From assembly GCA_030280995.1 (NCBI GenBank), contig JASXTE010000007.1, positions 10,879,001-10,943,000 of the forward strand: a stretch of DNA of 64,000 nt. The letters run 5' to 3'. Positions 20,313 to 43,423 of this stretch are shown in pieces (within the stretch, counting starts at the first letter, position 1; each line of letters starts with the position of its first letter). This DNA is from Hemileia vastatrix (Eukaryota > Basidiomycota > Pucciniomycetes > Pucciniales > Zaghouaniaceae). Both the position numbers and the translations under genes were made by a program. The notes beneath the pieces were generated by a model that did not search any database, was not told the origin of the DNA, and saw only the letters and a list, made by a program, of their open reading frames with translations.

Positions 20313-20490
20313 GTAAGTTATCAGGGGATCAGCTCATCAATTGGCTGGGGGATACCATTAGTAACTATTATTTGTCTCATGTTATTATTATTATCCATTT
20401 CCTTTTAATTTTTTAACTTTCATATTTTTGGTTAATTTTGTTATTTAATTTCAAGGTTTTTTTTTTAGTATGATAGTAGTTTAAACTAAA

Positions 20491-21036
20491 CATAAAATAA
20501 ATAAAATAAAATAAAATAAAATAAAATAAAATAAAAAAATAAAATAAAAAAATAAAATAAAATAAAATAAAAAAATAAAATAAAATAAAATAAAATAAAA
20601 TAAAATAAAATAAAATAAAATAAAATAAAATAAAATAAAATAAAATAAAATAAAATAAAATAAAATAAAATAAAATAAAATAAAATAAAATAAAATAAAA
20701 TAAAATAAAATAAAATAAAATAAAATAAAATAAAATAAAATAAAATAAAATAAAATAAAATAAAATAAAATAAAATAAAATAAAATAAAATAAAATAAAA
20801 TAAAATAAAATAAAATAAAATAAAATAAAATAAAATAAAATAAAATAAAATAAAATAAAATAAAATAAAATAAAATAAAACAAAACAAAATAAAATAAAA
20901 TAAAATAATAAAATAATAAAATAAAATAAAATAAAATAAAATAAAATAAAAAATAAACTAAAATAAAATAAAAAAATAAAATAAAATAAAATAAAATAAA
21001 ATAAAATAAAATAAAATAAAATAAAATAAAATAAAA
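20491..21036. repeat. (TAAAA)n microsatellite, about 545 bp
   Basis: Pentanucleotide TAAAA repeated roughly 100 times. The block 20577-20880 appears perfect; the ends carry small indels and C substitutions. Minus-strand open frames here (repeating F-I-L-F-Y) are artefacts of the repeat. Confidence 0.97.
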
Positions 21037-21738
21037 TTTTTTAACAAAAATAAAAATAAAAATAAAACAATTATATATATATATATTTTTCTGTTAGTTA
21101 TTATTGTTCTCTCTATTTAGTGAATTATTAATTTCTTTCTGGTTTATTTTAATGTCTGGAAGAAGAAGCCTCTGGCAGTTAGTCCGGATTGTGGTGGAGT
21201 TTTTGCATTTTGTTGGGATTGGAAGAAGAACTTTGTTCTTTGTTGTGTAGGCGGCTGGAAAGAGTATATGGATTGTATTGGTCAGGTACTGGAGTGGGAG
21301 GTAATTTTTGGGAATAAGTGGAAGAAGCCTGGATCAAGTGTTGGAAGGTGTGCTTGATTATTCTAGACATCTTTCAGTGGTCATCAAGGAGCTTTTTCCT
21401 CAGATTCTTTTCAATTTCATTAAACGCACCGTGGAGGGAAAACACCTTGAGCATGTTTGATCACATCATGCTTAGGTGTTGTTTCATGTCGGCGTAATTC
21501 AGCATTAAGGTAGTTTATAGAGGCTGGCCAATCCCAATTGTATTTTTAGGAGGCAGGGTTCCAACTACACAGAAGAATTAGATCAGAAATTGGATTTATT
21601 AATTTGGTACTTACAGATTGGAAGCTCATCAAATTTGTAAGCAGCTGGGATTTGAGCTGTTGAAGAAAGCTGAATGGATTTTGAAGGAGGATCACTCAGA
21701 TAGAGGTATGTATTCTCATTATCATTCTCTAAATTTTG

Positions 21739-24672: not shown

Positions 24673-25851
24673 TGTCAGTATAGTCTAGTATATAAGTATG
24701 ATATAATAGTATTTATTTATGGTCCTACTACTTATTGATAAATGATTTAGTGATTAAACCTCAGGGGAAGACTAATAAAATAGTTATACTCAAATAAAAC
24801 TCACAATACTTGGATTTAAATGTGTTCTAGTAATGAAAAATAGATGTATAAAATATAGTTATAGCTTATATAAAGATAATATCAATTTATAATGGCTTTG
24901 TAATATATTTCTAAATGTTAATAATTGTATAGTAGTGTTTGTTGGAGTTGTAGTAATTGAATGATGATCAATAACCGTCAAAATCCCTTCTTACTTATAC
25001 CCAAATCCACTGGAGTGCACAGACCTTCAATCCAGATGATGTCACTGCTATCCCCAGAAATTACAGCACTGTGAGGGCCCATAACCTCCCCATGGCTTCC
25101 ACTTCAAGCAGTTTCAACACCCAGACCTCCAGTAAGGACCCTCCATCACTATTAATAATAACACTGATCCATACCATAAATAGAAAATCCAGATAAAAGC
25201 GGATACCATAAAGAAACAGGTAAAATAAACAATCAAAAAGAGATTTAATGAAACCAAAAGCATATAAAGGAAACAAATAAAATTTCCAAGCCCCCAATAA
25301 CATCCCCAAGCATCCACATTAACCCAGAAATATCCTTCCAACCCATAAATCCGTGAATAACCATCCAAGGAAGTAATTTTAGTTGTCCAAACTGGGTGTA
25401 TGCACCTGATATAGGTGTCTAAACTTCTGTAGGCGTTGTGAGTCCACTGATTTTGTCCATATGACCTAAAATACGCAGAAAAACAAAGGTTATAGGCTAT
25501 TAAGGGGCTAAAACCCACTTATATACCTAAATATACATAATATACTGCATATTTCACTGAATATGAGATTTATGTATACATATAAGCTTATGTATGTCAA
25601 TAATTACTTCATATCACTTAAGATAAGTATATTATGACTCCATTAACACCTTAATAAGTATTATTAGGACATGGATAGGCTATTTAAACTATTATAAGTT
25701 ATATAATAGAATAATAAATATATATATATATATACTAAAATAATATATATTATTATTTTAACCTTATTTTTAAGATAAAAGCTCAATTTACTTAAGGTTA
25801 TCTTATTTTAAGCATAAAAAATATTCAGTTCTAAGGATATTTAGGCTGACA
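24673..25851 (-). mobile_element. B1 3' LTR
   Basis: 1179 bp, ends TGTCAG...CTGACA, nearly the same as the LTRs at 32334, 33796 and 58890. Open frames within it are copied in all LTRs and show no sign of selection. A TATAAG box followed by GGAGGGATTTTGAC in element sense is the likely promoter (at 33184 in the solo copy). Confidence 0.92.
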
Positions 25852-33865: not shown

Positions 33866-34843
33866 TAAACCTCAGGGGAATACTAATAAAATAGTTATAC
33901 TCAAATAAAACTCACAATACTTGGATTTAAATGCGTGCTAGTGGTGGAAAATAGATGTATAAAATATAGTTATAGCTAATATAAAGATAATATCAATTTA
34001 TAATGGCTTTATAATATATTTCTAAATGTTAATAATTGTATAGTAGTGTTTGTTGGAGTTGTAGTAATTGAATGATGATCAATAACTGTCAAAATCCCTT
34101 CTTACTTATACCCAAATCCACTGGAGTGCACAGACCTTCAATCCAGATGATGTCACTGCTATCCCCGGCAATTACAGCACTGTGAGGGCCCATCACCTCC
34201 CCATGGCGTCCACTTCAAGCAGTTTCAACACCCAGACCTCCAGTAAAGACCCTCCATCACTATTAATAATAACACTGATCCATACCATAAATAGAAAATC
34301 CAGATAAAAGCGGATACCATAAAGAAACAGGTAAAATAAACAATCAAAAAGAGATTTAATGAAACCAAAAGCATATAAAGGAAAAAAAATAAAATGTCCA
34401 AGCCCCCAATAACATCCCAAGCATCCACATCAACCCATAAATATCCTTCCAACCCATAAATCCGTGAATAACCATCCAAGGAAGTAATTTTAGTTGTCCT
34501 AACTGGGTGTATGCGCCTGATATAGGTGTCTATGCTTCTGTAGGCGTTGTGAGTCCACTGATTTTGTCCATATGACCTAAAATAAGCAGAAAAACAAAGG
34601 TTATAGGCTATTAAGGGGCTAAAACCCACTTATATACCTAAATATACATAATATACTGCATATTTCACTGAATATGAGATTTATGTATACATATAAGCTT
34701 ATGTATATCAATAATTACTTCATATCACTTAAGATAAGTATATTATGACTCCATTAACACCTTAATAATTATTATTAGGCCATGGATAAGCTATTTAAAC
34801 TATTATAAGTTATATAATAGAATAATAATTATATATATATATA
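33796..34843 (-). mobile_element. B1 5' LTR, main part
   Basis: Minus-oriented LTR sequence continuing from the palindromic array up to an (AT)n tract, where element C is inserted. It resumes at 43302-43418 and ends GGCTGAAA instead of GGCTGACA. Confidence 0.88.
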
Positions 34844-35615
34844 TGTCACCAGACGACCTACGCACAAGGTCGAAGATGTTCATGAAAGTGAGATGAGGGA
34901 TTTAGAAACTTCTTCGAAGCACAGAGGAATGATTCAAGGAAATGATTCGAAGGTCACTCGAAGTAATAGCTACAGGTTCGAGGTTCGTTTGAGAAGAATT
35001 ATAGACTAGTTTCAGAGGTAATAGTAATTCTTAAAATCTCACGAAGGGTTGGAAACTCAATAATCAAAGATTTAGGATTTAGAAATGAATATTGAGAAAA
35101 TAAGAGAAAGATACAATAACAATGATTTTAACTTTAAAGATTTACCACTATTAATGTAAATACGATTTTATAATTTAATTCTAAGGAATATCGAACCAAA
35201 TACCCAACCCCTTTTATATCCTTTGTTCCTCCTCGCATTGACCTCCCTTCCATCGCACATTCCCATTCCATTGACCATTACTAACATACACTTAGACCTT
35301 CTTCGCTAAATATCCGTCCATGCTCAATTTACTTCTTTTTAATTAATTAACAAAACTTTAATGAAAAAACTACTACTGTACTATTTCGTTGAACCTAGCA
35401 CTGTGTGTCGCTTATTGAAAAGGACTAATGTACCCTATTGGGAGATTGACTAATTTAGATTTAGAGTTTAGGCTAGCGCAGTTAAATAGTAAGTACACAA
35501 AGAAAATCGCAGTTGCTATGGAGAATTGCTTTCTGTGCTTGGAGTATAGATTTAGGACTTGATATTATTGATTTAATGAGTTGATTTTGCCTCGAGTGTC
35601 ACGTGGCGCATGACA
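34844..35615 (-). mobile_element. Element C 3' LTR
   Basis: 772 bp; the TATA (35211-35218) and start-site sequence match the 5' LTR copy. Confidence 0.93.
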
Positions 35616-35625
35616 GATGCCCGGG

Positions 35626-35633
35626 TATAAAAA
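35626..35633 (+). promoter_or_regulatory. TATA box of the antisense gene in element C
   Basis: TATAAAAA in GC-rich context, 11 bp beyond the LTR and 101 bp upstream of the ATG at 35727. It is outside the LTR, so the antisense gene appears to have its own promoter. Confidence 0.6.
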
Positions 35634-35726
35634 TTGCGAACTCCGTTGAGCTTGAGCCATCTTCCCACACTAGTTTCCCTTTTTTTAATAAATTTTTTCC
35701 TCACTTCTTAATTACTTATTTTTATA

Positions 35727-36680
35727 ATGAACTGTCCCACTCCCACACCTACACCTCCACACCCTAAAGCGGATGGGGGAATGATCACACGACAGTTTTC
35801 GCAGACTTGCACGGCTTGTGAAAGCATGGAGTATTTCTGTGTGGAAAGTACGGCGACCCAAGGCCCTCGCCAGAAATGTGAGTTTTGCCGTTGGCGGCAA
35901 GTGGCGTGCGATGCATTGACGAAGAACGCGGAAATCGAAAAACGATTTACCAAGACTAAGTTTTGGGTAATTCCTAAAACCAAAGAGGTGGTTGAAGACA
36001 TTTGGGATGTCTCGATCGAAGATGAACAATCGGTGGGGGAAAATGATAAGGAGTTAAACAACGAGATCTCAACCTGGGTAACCCAGGCCACGAGTTTGAA
36101 GCGAGGTGTTGAGGAAGAGGTCGACGAGTTAGTGGAGGACGATGAAGATGAAGTCCCTGTTCCAGGGCGGGCACCCAGGAAACAACGGGTGGTCATCGAG
36201 GAAAATGAGGAAGAGAGAGAGGTAGAGGTCGAAGTGGTGCCAAGGTTATTTCTAGAGCCTTACCCCATCTTCGAGGTAAGTTTTATTTGTTTATTTTAGG
36301 GTTGAAGTTACTGATGAGTTTTTTTGTTTTAGACATCGAATAACCTTGAAGAGCCGATTGCGGAGCCTGCTTCGGTTATACCAACTGAGGCAAACCCTCC
36401 GGCCACGGAAGTAATTGAAGAACCTGAAGACACACTGGACCAGGTGTGGTCGAAGAAACCTCGTCAAGGTCGACGAGTAAGGTTCGTGGAAGAATTATGT
36501 GGGGAGGTCAACACAATTATTGATGCGGCTTCCTTCGACGTGGCAGAGGAGCTCTTGGAGATGGGAGAGGTGGTTCCGGTAGGAGAGGAGGAGGTATTTG
36601 AGAAATGCAGAAAGGAGATAAAGGTTATTTTGGAGAAAATGAAAAGATTGGTTCGAGAGAAATTAAAAGAAAAGATTTGA
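35727..36680 (+). CDS. Intact antisense gene of element C: Zn(II)2Cys6-like protein, 298 aa
   Basis: Exon 1 is 35727-36275 (183 codons), the intron 36276-36332 (57 nt, GTAAGT...TTTTAG, branch-like CTGAT at 36311), and exon 2 is 36333-36680 (115 codons plus TGA). Splicing is phase 0 and both exons are fully open. Residues C28, C31, C38, C51, C54 and C61 give C-X2-C-X6-C-X12-C-X2-C-X6-C, exactly the Gal4-type binuclear zinc cluster spacing, though the first loop (E-S-M-E-Y-F) lacks the usual basic residues. The rest is acidic (runs of E and D around residues 130-165) with basic patches (R-Q-G-R-R-V-R near residue 225) and a Lys-rich helical C-terminus. It lies between the pol end and the 3' LTR of C, on the opposite strand, and keeps its frame while gag-pol of C is broken. 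Likely nuclear and DNA-binding; role in the element unknown. Confidence 0.78.
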
Positions 36681-37618
36681 AATGAAAAGGAGATGTAAAG
36701 AAGTAGAAAAAATTTGTATTTTAGTTTTATTTTATTTTATTTTATTTTATTTTGTTATTAATTTTATAAGATTTGAGAGAGAGAGAAAAAGAAAAAAAAG
36801 AAGTTTAAAATAAAAAATTTTAGAATTTGAAAGAAGAAATTTAAAGAAAGAAAAAAGGTTGTTTAATTGAAGGAAGTTTTAATGTTTTTTTTTTTTTTTT
36901 TTTAAAAAAGGAAATTTTTTATGTAAGAAAAGAAAGAGAACAAAAAAGAAACGGTTTTGTGATTGAGATGAGTTTGTTAAATTGAGGATTTAATGAAAGA
37001 AAAATATATGTTTTTTTTTTTTTTTTTTAAGAAATTTTAGTTGAAAAGAGAGGAGGAAGAAAGAAAAGAAAAAAAACAGAATTTAGAATTTAAGAGAATT
37101 TGAAAAGAAAAATTATTTGTTTCAAAGAATTATTATAGGGAGATTTAGAGGTTGAAGTTAAGTTCAAGGAAATGGTCGTGTCGTACAAGATTTGATGATT
37201 CGAAGGAAAGAAAGTTTTTAAAAGAGAAAATAAATTTGTGGAAGAGAAATTTTTTGAAGAGAATTTAAGAAAAGAATGTATTTAAAGAATTGAAAAAGAA
37301 AAGAAAGAAAATATTTAAAGAGATTTAAGAGTTTTTTTATTTTATTTTATTATTTATGTTTATTCTATTTATTTTATTTTTTATTTTTTTTTATTATTTA
37401 TATTTATTCTATTTATTTTATTTTTATTTTATTTTATTTTATTTTATTTTAACTTTAATTTTTATTTTATTTTTAGTTGGTTTTGGAGGAAATTTTATAG
37501 AAGGAGAAGAAAGAAAAAAAGAAGAGAGAAAAAAGAAAACAAGGCTAAGAAATTTAAGAGGTGTTTTAGATTTTAAAGAAAGAAAGAAAAAGAAAAGAAA
37601 ATTTTAAATAAAGAAATT
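36681..37618. other. Purine-rich non-coding spacer in element C
   Basis: Long AAAGAAAG / GAGAGAG runs, T tracts at about 36890 and 37010, and ATTTT repeats at 36725 and 37330-37450. It separates the convergent 3' ends of the antisense gene and pol, and may hold both transcript ends. No convincing gene. Confidence 0.65.
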
Positions 37619-40600
37619 TTAAGGTTTTGGTTTTAAAGGATATTTCAAATGAAAAGATTTTAGGAGTTCAGGAGCATTAGAAACATTGATGGCTGGTTCC
37701 CAGGATGTTTTGTCTGAGTCATTGAGGAAGCCTTCCCATTCCACGAGGTATTGAAGTTTCCCCTTGCGTATTCTTGAATCAAGGATACGACTTACTTCCC
37801 ACTCTAGATGATCTTCTGCTTTGACCGGTTACGGAGGGGGTTGGTTCTTGCCCGGGTATATTTCTCGAGCCAGTTCCAGGAGAGATACATGGAAAACAGG
37901 ATGAATCGCCTGCCATTTAGGAGGTAACTTGAGTCGAAATGCAGTTTTAGAGACTTCATAGTCGATTTCAAATGGTCCCAAGCGCTTTTCAGCCAGTTTC
38001 TTTGATGGTCTTGTTGTTCGAATGTTTCGTGCGTCGAGCCATACTTTGTCGCCTGGTTTAAAAGAAGAAGCAGATTGTCAATGTTTGTCGGCCTGTTCCT
38101 TGTATCTTTGAATCGCTGATTCCAAATTTGTTTTAAGTTCTTCTTGGAGTCGTGATATAGTTCGAAGATAATGTTCCGCAGGATGATTAGTTCCTACATG
38201 GATTGAGTTGAATCGAGGATGTCGTCCATAAATGGTTTCGAAGGGAGATTGTCGTGTCAAAGAATGAGTCGAGTTATTATAAGCAAATTCGGCCAATGGT
38301 AACCATGTGGTCCAATTGTCTTGTTGGTAACTGACATACATTCAAAGATATTGTTTGAGGATTTGGTTAACTCTTTCTGTTTGACCATCGGTTTCAGGGT
38401 GATAGGCCGTGGAGAGATTCCTCGTGATATTGAGTTGTCAACACAGTTGGGTCCAGAATGTGGATACAAACAATGAGCCTTAATCCGAAATGATATCATT
38501 TGGTAAGCTGTGTTTAGAAAATACATATTCTAGAAACAATTTTGAAAAATCTTCTGCTGCGGCAGTAGTAGTGGTTTTAATAAAAATAGACATTTTTGAA
38601 AATCTATCTACTATTACTAATATAGCATCAAAATCATTAGACATAGGAAGTTGAGAAATAAAATCCATCGATAAAGATTCCCAAGGTTTATGGGGAATAG
38701 GAATTGGTTGAAGCAACCCATGCTTCCGGTGACGGGGAGCCTTATTCCTATTACATTTGTAACAAGCTTTTATATAGCCCTTGATTTCCCTGGTCATACC
38801 TGGCTAGAAGAAATCCCTCGCTATTAACTGGTAGGTTTTATCAACCCCAAAATGACCATCTAATGGAGAATCATGTTGACTGTTGAAAATCCATAATTTT
38901 ATCTCATTGTTGTCGGGTATGACTACTCTACCTTCGAAGACTAATAGACCTGATTCAATACTAAATCTTTTGGCCCCTTTCTTCAAGAGTATTTTGTCTT
39001 TTAACCCTAAACAATAATTTTCCTTCGACTGAGCTTCGAGGATATTGGATAGTGGATTTCAAAAAGATTGAATTGTCATCGAATTAAGTTGATGAGTCGT
39101 TAACATTGATTCGTTGAAGATTGATTGCACATTTGCTGGGTCCTTGTCAGCAAATGCGTCCCCCCGCTGTGGGTAAACGTTGTCCCGACGTGACAAGATA
39201 TCTGGGACAATGCAGTTTTTTCCTGGGCAATAGGAAATAGAGAAAGAAAATTCAGACAAAAATTCAGCCCACCTGGCTTGACGCCTGGTTAACACTTTAG
39301 AAGACATGAAGTATTTCAAAGCATTATGATCTGTTAAAATTTGAAAAGGACTATCTAGGCTGAGAAGAAAATAACGCCATTTTTTAAGACAATGGATAAT
39401 AGCTAAAAGCTCTTTGTCATGAATTTCATAATTTAATTCTGCGGCTATGAGTTTGCGTGACTCAAAAGCAACAGGATGAAACAAATTTGTTTTAGGATTT
39501 AATTGGGAGATGACCCCTGCAATAGCATAATCGCTCGCATCTGTCTCAACTATTGTAGAGGAAGAAGGATCAAAATGTCGAAGAATTGGGGCTGTGGTGA
39601 ACGCCATTTTTAGTGCTTCAAATTTCTTTCGTGCTGTAGAAGTAAAAACAAAAGGAATATCTTTTCTAAGAAGAGAAGTAAGATTGGAAATAGTTTTAGA
39701 GTAATCTTTAATAAATCTTCTATAGAAGTTTGCAAAACCCAAAAATCCTTGGAGTGATTTAATGTTTTTGGGCTCAGGCCATTCCAGGATTTTCTGGACT
39801 TTTTTGTCATCCATGACTAAACCGTCAGTGGACAACGTAAAAGCCAAAAAATCAATTGATTTGAGGTGAAATTCGCATTTATTATGCTTGGCGTAGAGAC
39901 CATGATCTTGAAGACAATTTAGGACCTTTCGAACATGATGAATATGTTCATCCAGTGTTTTCGAGAATATTAAAATATCATCTAAATAGACGACTACAAA
40001 TTGTTCAACAACATCTTGAAAGATATCATTAACAAAAGTTTGAAAAGTTGAAGGTGCGTTACATAATCCAAAAGGCATAACTAAATATTCAAAACTACCA
40101 AATCTAGTGTGCATTGCAGTCAGTGGTTCATGACCTTCCGCAATGCGAATAAGATTGTAAGCGCCTCTAAGATCAATTTTAGAAAAGAAATTAGCACCAT
40201 TGAAAAGGGTAAGAAGTAATGACATAGGAGGAACAGGATATGCATTCTTCTTAGTGACTGTTGAGCTTTCTATAGTCAACACACAACCTAAGACTACCAT
40301 CTTTCTTTTTTACAAAGAGGACAGGGGAGCCGGTTGGAGATTTACTGGATCTGATGAAACCTTTGGCTACATTCTCTGCAATGTAGTCTCGAAGAACTTG
40401 AGATTCGTCCTTCAATAAAGAATAGACAGGACCTGCCAGAGGTGCTGGGCCTATTAACTCTATTTGATGATCGTAGGGTCGATGAGGTGGTAAATTATCG
40501 GCCTTACCGATTGAGAAAACATCGAGGAAATCATGGTAGATTTCAGGTAGAGTTGATTTAATGGCTTCAACGTTGATTTGGTCGTCCTCTTCATCTTCGA

Positions 40601-41249
40601 GAGAATCTGTCAAGGGGATACCTGTATTGAGAGAGCAGAATTTGATTACTTCGAGGCAATTTAAATCCTCTTCAAGTGAAGTCATCGAGCTAGAAGGGTT
40701 AGCCAATTGCTCATTTAAAGAAGGATCAGATGCTTGCAAGTCATCTGGCAGAGACTTGTCCTCTAGCAGGACTTTGTCAGGCAGGTTGTTTAACTCCCTA
40801 TTGACCTGCATTGAAGAATCAGAAATATACTTAGAGCGTGGGGTGATCAATCCCCTAGTCCAATCAATTTCGGGATTCCAATGGGTTAAAAAGTCATGGC
40901 CAAGAATGGTATCGTCCATCCTTGGGGAGTCCAAGACTGATAATTCCCACTCAAAGGGGGGGAAGTTCGGAAAGTTTAAAACCCATAAAACTTTCTTACT
41001 TACCCAATATTTGGGTTCCTCTGATTCGACCAAATAGATTGGAGTTTGATCGATATCTGTAAATGTTAGTTGAAGCTTCTCGGCAAAAGATAAACTAACA
41101 AAAGAAATTGAAGCTCCAGAGTCTATAAGACAACTGATGGGGATATCCTCCTTAAAAAGAATGAATCTCAAGCGGTTTAAGGCAACTCCAGTCCTTAAGA
41201 CATGGAGGTTCTGTGCACTGGGAGAGATAAGATAGTTTGCTTTGCACAC
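37619..41249 (-). pseudogene. Element C protease-RT-RNase H-integrase-chromodomain, lightly broken
   Basis: Protease L-I-D-S-G-A-S with Asp at 41123-41121; RT split by a one-base frameshift near 40265; Y-L-D-D (DD at 39982-39977); RNase H with E-T-D-A-S-D, K-E-L-L-A and T-D-H-N-A-L; then stops near 39059, 38804, 38480 and 38342. Integrase has its zinc finger (H...C-X2-C near 38750), M-D-F-I-S and [12 protein letters not shown]-type module (L-G-P-F-E) is near 37980. The canonical chromodomain Y-L-V-E-W-E-G-F...S-W-E-P lies at about 37830-37660. The known role of such chromodomains is to steer integration to marked chromatin. Few lesions, consistent with youth. Confidence 0.9.
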
Positions 41250-42451
41250 AAGTAAACTATCTACTAGTTTTTTGACTTTGAACTAGTACCTTATCTTTCC
41301 TTCAACTTTACACAGTCTTCCAACTTGTGCTTACCCCCACAATACATACATAACCCATTATCTGCTCGTCTTTTCCTCTCAGCTTCTTTAAGTTCCCCTT
41401 TAGGATCCAGTACTTATCTGATATCGCCTGGGGTCGAGCCTTTTGGTCGAGGTTTATCCTTTCCCTTATTGGGTTTGGATTGAGTCGAGGAGGATTGATT
41501 TGGTCGTGGGTGTGAAGAAGGTCCCAATTTAAAATTTAGGCCTTGAGATTTGTTGGCATATCAACGATGTTGAAGTTGTCCTTGATAAACGCTGTCAAGT
41601 TTGAGGGTTCGATCCATTAAATCCCTTAAAGTAGTCCTCTTCTGACCGTGAAGATTTAATTGATCTAGAATCCTCGAAGGAAGCCCTTTCTAGAAATGAT
41701 ACTTAAGGGCAGCATCATTCCAACCTACTCGAGTTTGAAGTGCTCTGAAGTTCGAGATATATTCAGAGGCTTTACCATTATCACTCATGCGAAGAAAATC
41801 AAGTTCAATTTCGGCGTTGTCCATTTCATTAGGGTCCCCAAACAACGTAAAAAGTTGGTCTTTGAAATTTTCCCAATTATTGATAAGTAAGTGGGTTTCT
41901 GTCGAAGAAAGCATGAGTAGATAAGGTTCGAACCATCTTGCTGCTTTCCCGGCTAGGAATGAAGAAGCGTAAACAACCTTTGATTGGTCGCTGTTAAAGG
42001 TTCGAGGGTCATTATGGAACAGTAGCTTGCAGGTTTGCAAGAAGGGTCGCAATCTGTCGGGGTGATCTCCGTCGAATTTGTCAGGAGATTTCATAGAAGG
42101 AGTTTTGAACTTAGATCCCTCTGAAGACGTTGGATTTGAGAGGGTTTTCATGAAAATTCTCATGAAATCTTCCAGAGAGTTAGATGGTCCAGGTTCTGAG
42201 GATTGGCCAGCAGGGTGATTGGCAGGGGAGGATGGTGCCTCGTGCATTGTATCCTCTCCTTCTTCTTCGTCACTAGAATCCTCAAAATCTTGTGGGATGT
42301 CTTCTACAGATTGAACTGAATGTTGCTGTTCCCTAAGGTTGAGTGGTTCCAAAGAGTGAGTGCGAGAAACAGACCTTGTGGCTGTTGGCCTGCCTCTAGC
42401 CCGAGCTCTAGTAGTAGCGCCCGTAGGAGGAGTGCGTTGAACAGGTGCCAT
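41250..42451 (-). pseudogene. Element C gag
   Basis: ATG 42451 opens a 253-codon frame to 41690 containing the capsid-like region (conserved F-D-G-D, F-L-A-G-K-A-A-R-W, L-F-G-D-P-N). A stop follows at 41690 and others near 41563 and 41415. The frame otherwise continues to a C-X2-C-X3-H-X4-C zinc knuckle at about 41345-41310 and on toward the protease, so gag and pol were probably one polyprotein. The N-terminus is rich in Arg/Ala/Thr, the centre acidic. Confidence 0.85.
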
Positions 42452-42523: not shown

Positions 42524-43296
42524 TGTCACCGGACGACCTACGCACAAGGTCGAGGATGTTCCTGAAAGTGAGATGAGGGATTTAGAAACTTCTTCAAAGC
42601 ACAGAGGAATGATTCGAGGAAATGATTCGAAGGTCACTCGAAGTAATATCTGCAGGTTCGAGGTTCGTTCGAGAAGAATTAAAGACTAGTTTCAGAGGTA
42701 ATAGTAATTCTTAAAATCTCAAGAAGGGTTGGAAACTCAATAATCAAAGATTTAGGATTTAGAAATGAATATTGAGAAAATAAGAGAAAGATACAATAAC
42801 AATGATTTTAACTTTAAAGATTTACCACTATTAATGTAAATACAATTTTATAATTTAATTCTAAGGAATATCGAACCAAATACCCAACCCCTTTTATATC
42901 CTTTGTTCCTCCTCGCATTGACCTCCCTTCTATCGCACATTCCCATTCCATTGACCATTACTAACATACACTTAGACCTTCTTCGCTAAATATCCGTCCA
43001 TGCTCAATTTACTTCTTTTTAATTAATTAACAAAACTTTAATGAAAAAACTACTACTGTACTATTTCGTTGAACCTAGCGCTGTGCGTCGCTTATTGAAA
43101 AGGACTAATGTACCCTATTGGGAGATTGACTAATTTAGATTTAGAGTTTAGGCTAGCGCAGTTAAATAGTAAGTACACAAAGGAAAATCGCAGTTGCTAT
43201 GGAGAATTGCTTTCTGCGCTTTGAGTATAGATTTAGGACTTGATATTATTGATTTAATGAGTTGATTTCGCCTCTAGTGTCACGTGGCGCGTGACA
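42524..43296 (-). mobile_element. Element C 5' LTR
   Basis: 773 bp. The promoter is on the minus strand: TATAAAAG at 42898-42891, then about 30 nt to AGAATTAAATT at 42862, the inferred RNA start. Confidence 0.92.
42891..42898 (-). promoter_or_regulatory. TATA box of element C
   Basis: TATAAAAG, followed by GGGG; 36 to 29 nt upstream of the inferred start at 42862. Confidence 0.7.
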
Positions 43297-43423
43297 ATAT
43301 ATTTAAATAATATATATTATTATTTTAACCTTATTTTTAAGATATAAGCTCAATTTACTTGAGTTTATCTTATTTTAAGCATAAGAAATATTCAGTCCTA
43401 AGGATATTTAGGCTGAAAATATC

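Follow-up and report, generated by a model that had tools for sequence, protein, structure and literature searches.

Does a retrotransposon of the fungus Hemileia vastatrix carry, on the strand opposite gag-pol, a spliced gene of its own, and what could its protein do? The question was raised by an earlier note on a stretch of 64,000 nucleotides (assembly GCA_030280995.1, contig JASXTE010000007.1, positions 10,879,001 to 10,943,000; the window), which described a Zn(II)2Cys6-type gene antisense to gag-pol in a long terminal repeat (LTR) retrotransposon, element C. We consider it quite probable that a fungal chromodomain Ty3/gypsy family has here an accessory gene, encoded antisense in two exons and kept by purifying selection.

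The gene sits inside a single LTR pair, between pol and the 3' LTR and opposite gag-pol, the position expected of an antisense accessory ORF of that region (aORF-3R). Its TATA sequence (TATAAAAA), start codon, intron, 298 codons and cysteine spacing were all re-read on the + strand exactly where the earlier note had placed them (Table 1). The G+C content is 50% in exon 1, 47% in exon 2 and 25% in the intron, and base use at the three codon positions is unequal in exon 1 (p 1.8e-4) and in exon 2 (p 8.7e-6). An open run of 298 codons occurred in none of 5000 first-order Markov sequences built from the coding sequence (maximum 216). Across from exon 1, the minus strand is likewise open over 183 codons. 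This minus-strand frame was discarded as a coding frame because it hits stops across the rest of the gene and because the site classes of exon 1 favor the + strand: third-position changes are silent on the + strand and not on the minus strand at 11 of 183 sites, and the reverse at 7 of 423, both small numbers. Over both exons the corresponding counts, also small, are 16 of 294 and 17 of 682.

How widely is the gene carried by the family? The genome searched comprises 747.6 Mb in 791 contigs. In a DNA search, 40 of 4058 candidates were scored (93 to 100% identity, the window included), and 20 of the 39 others were analyzed in full length as near copies; LTR matches, some of them partial, flank the gene in 19 of these and were not found in L023. 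With a gag query from Austropuccinia psidii, 138 gag places out of 7262 candidates were scored, and elements were then picked from them by hand: three (L029 to L031) and 12 more taken down the gag list. All 15 bear the antisense gene, L050 only from codon 68; with a ratio of nonsynonymous to synonymous divergence (dN/dS) close to that of gag, this is the pattern of an aORF-3R, present in most family copies and conserved like gag-pol. Twelve further copies (L032 to L043) were taken from 150 protein matches of differing open-frame lengths. Finally, a degenerate 26-base start motif has 1461 exact matches in the genome (748 + 713), its reversed control none, and a narrower version 18. Twelve of the 1461 places, selected for differing motif spellings and including L059 to L061, were examined, and all 12 encode the antisense gene; the tblastn table and donor sites were used for these copies, as motif-placed models got the acceptor site or the reading frame wrong in several of the decayed ones. 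At G000:C19:2616406-2632289, three gene matches with identical scores follow each other at ~7.7-kb steps, which suggests tandem elements with shared LTRs.

Is the protein under selection? Since the nearest copies show the decay of dead insertions, subfamilies were compared. Between the window copy and L029 to L043, dN/dS is 0.07 to 0.28 for exon 1 in 15 of 15 copies and 0.13 to 0.34 for exon 2 in 13 (L030 and L037, which lost the frame, were dropped). Over all pairs of these copies and the window, exon 1 has a median of 0.109 (range, 0.04 to 0.54), with 119 of 120 pairs below 0.5, and exon 2, with the same two copies dropped, a median of 0.192 (range, 0.06 to 1.04), with 86 of 91 below 0.5. 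The gag-picked L029 to L031, whose selection was independent of protein similarity, give 0.10 to 0.15 for exon 1, and their gag gives 0.12 to 0.31 against the window. Among the start-motif copies, L062 to L068 and L070 have values of ~0.09 to 0.14, and L069, in which the frame is lost, 0.26. The comparison extends to distant relatives. L047 and L051, both of them decayed and carrying stops as well as in-frame gaps, have LTRs ~77% identical and a protein 58 to 64% identical to those of the window, with proportions of nonsynonymous (pN) and synonymous (pS) differences of 0.16 to 0.26 and 0.64 to 0.82, the latter near saturation; L059 to L061 form a separate clade with 69 to 71% protein identity, pN of 0.14 to 0.15, and pS of 0.73 to 0.78. 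Constraint is spread along the entire protein, with ratios of 0.08 to 0.36 per segment. Purifying selection has preserved the antisense protein while the family diverged over a long time, and the gene is old. The comparison of copies proposed in the earlier note yields clear constraint between subfamilies and clades and near-neutral values among the nearest copies. The spliced, protein-coding antisense gene that it described, with pol on one side and the 3' LTR on the other, is supported as an established part of the element.

Decay of CpG sites was considered as a source of the low ratios and rejected. Without CpG, TpG, and CpA sites, dN/dS is 0.06 to 0.15 in eight of eight pairs, and in each of the five pairs tested by mutation shuffles that kept the spectrum and CpG status, 0 of 2000 shuffles reached the observed silent count. 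Noncoding frames give 1.18 to 1.94, the minus frame with common third positions excepted. The antisense gene has diverged more at silent sites than gag in the same pairs (35727-36680 versus 41690-42451): between the window and L029, its dS is 0.301 versus 0.067 for gag. CpG density accounts for part of the gap, and subfamilies may also have exchanged the 3' module.

The earlier note had set an intact gene against a broken gag-pol. This is true of the window copy, whose gag-pol is split into separate open segments, but the contrast is a matter of chance. For the antisense gene, 18 stops over 20 copies make ~3.0 per 1000 codons; the rate is ~3.1 for gag (14 stops, 18 copies), ~3.1 in the protease/reverse transcriptase part (19 stops, 18 copies), and ~3.7 in the reverse transcriptase/RNase H part (29 stops, 19 copies), the last two counted in the frame of the window copy, so that a few may be out of frame near segment ends. 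With stop rates so alike over 18 to 20 copies, all parts decay together after insertion, and the intactness of the gene was rejected as evidence. All 20 near copies retain the ATG, GT..AG, exon lengths of 549 and 348 nucleotides (nt), and the stop codon. For transitions among the near copies and the window, pN/pS is 0.79 for singletons, 0.97 for changes shared by 2 to 3 copies, and 0.43 for those in at least 4.

The intron raises a question of its own: how can a retroelement keep one? In 36 aligned copies, exon 1 measures 549 nt in all and exon 2 348 nt in 33, and the intron takes eight lengths between 54 and 73 nt. Its ends are GTAAG and AG in every copy, and a branch-site-like ACTGATGAG (36310-36318) is present in 35. 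The donor follows codon 183 in 11 of the 12 start-motif copies, L069 having lost one exon 1 base, and L047 and L051 have an unchanged intron position and retain a branch-like TACTRATGA. Because much of the intron variation falls in T runs, the contrast in length is support and not proof. An intron on the antisense strand can survive retrotransposition, since reverse transcription starts from RNA of the gag-pol-sense strand, on which the splice signals are not read; placing a gene on the noncopied strand may thus be a retroelement's way of keeping an intron.

Where would the antisense transcript start? A candidate core promoter lies outside the LTR, directly beside its edge. The block at 35615-35673 is 83% identical to the window in L051 and 75% in L047, while the remaining leader is 49% and 45% identical, and in an alignment of five LTR ends the best conserved 40-column block is the TATA block with the last LTR bases (37 of 40 columns). 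We infer that a TATA promoter of the gene's own, next to the 3' LTR on its inner side, drives its transcription and that the transcript is then spliced. No polypurine tract was seen on the gag-pol-sense strand beside the 3' LTR (35600-35660); the conserved bases in this interval, GATGCCCGGGTATAA on the + strand, overlap the antisense TATA box. Plus-strand priming may be unusual in this family, and since the TATA block lies at the expected site of the polypurine tract, it may additionally serve reverse transcription. At the LTR edge beside the promoter (35597-35615), an inverted repeat, TGTCACG-TGGCG-CGTGACA, is a candidate protein-binding site; it is perfect in three of five aligned LTR ends, one base off in the 3' LTR of the window, and further off in L047. 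Within the LTR, CCCTTTTATATC (35208-35221), which reads GATATAAAAGGG on the gag-pol strand, is kept in five aligned LTRs and is likely the sense TATA box.

What kind of protein is encoded? It has 298 residues and 34.2 kDa and is very acidic (isoelectric point, 4.55), with acidic stretches at residues 127 to 146 and 158 to 171, basic, nuclear-signal-like patches (APRKQR and KKPRQGRRVR), and a basic C-terminal segment in which 11 of 25 residues are K or R. Zn(II)2Cys6 clusters follow the spacing CX2CX6CX(5-16)CX2CX(6-8)C, into which the six cysteines at residues 28, 31, 38, 51, 54, and 61 (spacing 2-6-12-2-6) fit. Each of them is kept in 34 to 36 of 36 copies, and all six are present in nine of nine gag-picked and 8 of 12 start-motif copies. 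The earlier note had taken the protein to be of Gal4 type. The spacing agrees with this, but the Pfam Zn_clus model (PF00172) gave 13.3, 15.6, and 14.8 bits, below its gathering cut-off of 21; the whole protein had no match to Zn_clus at expectation values up to 1, and a Pfam scan placed it in no family at its cut-off. The best Zn_clus stretch aligns the second half of the segment with the first half of the model. In Gal4-type clusters, the first half typically has basic residues between its cysteines 2 and 3, whereas here that half, CTACESMEYFC, is acidic and the basic residues are in the second, CEFCRWRQVAC. Membership in the zinc-cluster family is thus unproven.

Several observations weigh against a conserved, functional zinc-cluster-like gene. 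L032 to L043 come from a list of matches ordered by protein similarity, a choice that lowers their dN, and the minus-strand frame that faces the wobble positions also has a low dN/dS (0.18 to 0.22), although stops break that frame. Internal stops, one or two each, occur in the gene in 14 of the 20 near copies (none in the other six), at the gag-pol rate that the earlier note had named as telling against function; this bears on dead copies and not on transposing lineages. Changes among near copies are close to neutral, as expected of decay after insertion, and lend no support by themselves. Exon lengths are less regular in nine further gag-picked copies: exon 1 has 549 nt in eight and 548 in one, and exon 2 has 348 nt in four, 336 in three, which may be an alignment-end effect, 349 in one, and 345 in one. 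Three cysteines outside the segment are kept in 34 to 35 of 36 copies, so that conservation of the six is not special. AlphaFold2 models had mean pLDDT (predicted local distance difference test) scores of 31.7 and 40.2, too poor to read, and no homologues were found among 5.8 billion proteins or in the PDB; a search of viral contigs likewise found no relatives. With Zn_clus below its cut-off in the profile search that the earlier note had suggested, no relatives found, and no usable model from the structure prediction, "zinc-cluster-like" refers to the spacing only. Expression, splicing, nuclear entry, DNA binding, and regulation by the protein are predictions from sequence. Could the frame then be a functionless shadow or a captured fragment of a host gene? 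The decay of the near copies at the gag-pol rate and the open opposite strand of exon 1 would fit such an origin, but the strong constraint between clades, the mostly kept exon lengths and splice sites, the conserved promoter block, and the presence of the gene in every gag-picked element make it highly improbable and largely refute it.

For the accessory gene that we favor, the most likely mechanism, to which we give tentative and slightly less than even credence, is that of a nuclear regulator of its own element. The acidic 34-kDa protein, with its metal-binding-like six-cysteine segment, its two basic patches, and its long acidic stretches, would enter the nucleus and bind LTR or promoter DNA, or chromatin, thereby setting sense transcription, silencing, or integration of the element that encodes it; HBZ, Tat, and plant antisense proteins, which may act in a comparable way, serve as a model for such element-encoded control. 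It is rather doubtful that the protein works in the manner of Gal4, as a self-encoded zinc-cluster transcription factor controlling the LTR and possibly host genes near the thousand-plus insertions. A structural or nucleic-acid accessory role after transcription also seems unlikely, whether in bringing the integration complex into the nucleus, in packaging RNA, or in targeting chromatin jointly with the chromodomain integrase: the basic patches and the basic C-terminal segment do fall in constrained segments, and nuclear import is among the roles discussed for plant antisense proteins in passages of PMC7264820, but the putative promoter of its own and the antisense orientation would uncouple the protein from gag-pol dosage. 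Less probable still is a module for silencing or anti-silencing, in which antisense RNA or protein would steer small-RNA or methylation silencing of the family. The high copy number indicated by the start-motif matches suits this idea, and genomic RNA would base-pair with an antisense transcript that covers the 3' end, regulation by double-stranded RNA having been proposed (passages of PMC7264820); a pure RNA role, however, predicts no constraint at the codon level, and such constraint was measured. This objection does not touch an anti-silencing protein, which together with the post-transcriptional helper is the main rival of the nuclear regulator.

Element C itself is a chromodomain Ty3/gypsy retrotransposon with a 5-bp target duplication. 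Its LTRs, of 772 and 773 bp, differ at 19 of 771 aligned bases. The host repeat flanking the element has uninterrupted copies at 24889-25849 and elsewhere in the window, and therefore the whole interval is one insertion. Its domains, according to Pfam, stand in the chromovirus order of Gag, protease, reverse transcriptase-RNase H, integrase, and then chromodomain. The rve and H2C2 domains score under their cut-offs in the broken window copy and over them in L031, the sole copy with an integrase core over the Pfam cut-off. Nine of 10 gag matches are proteins of the rust A. psidii (35 to 52% identity), and the tenth is a metagenome protein; by its gag, the element would probably belong to a rust or a closely related basidiomycete. 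The G+C content of the spacer is 18.5% (36681-37650). Elsewhere in the window, a repetitive T/A-rich tract (20413-21093) has minus-strand open frames of up to 226 codons, apparently spurious.

Table 1. Positions in the window of element C and its antisense gene
Feature	Position	Strand	Remark
Target-site duplication ATATA, left	34839..34843		second copy 43297-43301
3' LTR of element C	34844..35615	-	
Candidate core promoter of antisense gene	35616..35673	+	conserved block; TATAAAAA at 35626-35633, outside LTR
Antisense gene, exon 1	35727..36275	+	183 codons
Zinc-cluster-like segment, codons 28-61	35808..35909	+	C-X2-C-X6-C-X12-C-X2-C-X6-C
Intron	36276..36332	+	GTAAGT...TTTTAG, 57 nt
Antisense gene, exon 2	36333..36680	+	115 codons + stop (36678-36680)
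Low-complexity A/G-rich spacer between antisense gene and pol	36681..37618		
Chromodomain, end of pol	37622..37828	-	Pfam Chromo 52.1 bits
Integrase pieces	37829..38803	-	Tf2-1-like SH3 70.1 bits
Reverse transcriptase + RNase H	39059..40309	-	Pfam
Protease + start of reverse transcriptase	40251..41282	-	Pfam RVP_2
gag	41690..42451	-	Pfam Retrotrans_gag 38.9 bits; Austropuccinia psidii relatives
5' LTR	42524..43296	-	

With one spliced gene, more than 1000 start-motif matches in one genome, codon-level constraint measured across several clades, and a candidate promoter and metal-binding segment, the family is a clean test case for antisense accessory genes of LTR retrotransposons, which are described without a determined function in passages of PMC7264820 and PMC11963269. 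Should the protein indeed bind DNA, this fungal transposon family would encode its own regulator. How does it compare with known systems? The earlier note mentioned antisense extra open reading frames (ORFs) in some plant gypsy elements; Grande, RIRE2, and Retand are cited with such ORFs at the same place (passages of PMC7264820 and PMC11963269). For maize Grande gene23, a promoter of its own and a product in the nucleus are described, and rice RIRE2 also has an antisense ORF (passages of PMC7264820). These are antisense accessory genes like ours, compared here by description; their hosts are plants, and the passages of PMC7264820 describing them mention no zinc-cluster-like segment. Retand ORFs occur in 97% of recent clusters and carry a TRP28 domain with predicted DNA binding (passages of PMC11963269); they share with element C the antisense orientation and a long region between pol and the 3' LTR, and differ in belonging to a nonchromovirus lineage of plant hosts and in their TRP28 domain.

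The earlier note also suggested that a fungus-type zinc-cluster protein in this position might be new. No relatives of the protein were found, and no zinc-cluster antisense gene of a fungal LTR element was found in the literature covered (titles, abstract openings, and passages of PMC5408684 and PMC12477816), but its position has a fungal precedent in brtn, an antisense gene of Boty in Botrytis cinerea (Zhao et al. 2011, as cited in passages of PMC7264820, PMC8365987, and PMC4227169). Like element C, Boty is described as a fungal, chromodomain-bearing gypsy-type element with an extra antisense gene that follows pol on the side of the 3' LTR; unlike it, its host is an ascomycete, and brtn was compared by description only. 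Human T-cell leukemia virus (HTLV) has an antisense gene as well (passages of PMC7264820 and PMC11963269). It resembles ours in lying at the 3' end and offers an antisense-encoded regulator as a model, whereas its antisense promoter is within the 3' LTR and the TATA box of element C is outside it. We take this HTLV gene to be HBZ; it is not known to be related in sequence to the gene of element C. Compared with Gal4-type PF00172 proteins, the six cysteines are alike in spacing, and one half of the segment, CEFCRWRQVACD, is similar to the first half of the profile; the sub-cut-off score and the basic residues in the second half set the antisense protein apart. Plants (Grande, RIRE2, and Retand) and Boty of Botrytis thus offer known examples of antisense genes in the pol-3' LTR region, and new here are a protein family without relatives found, its six cysteines, a conserved intron, a candidate promoter of its own, and strong measured constraint across clades.

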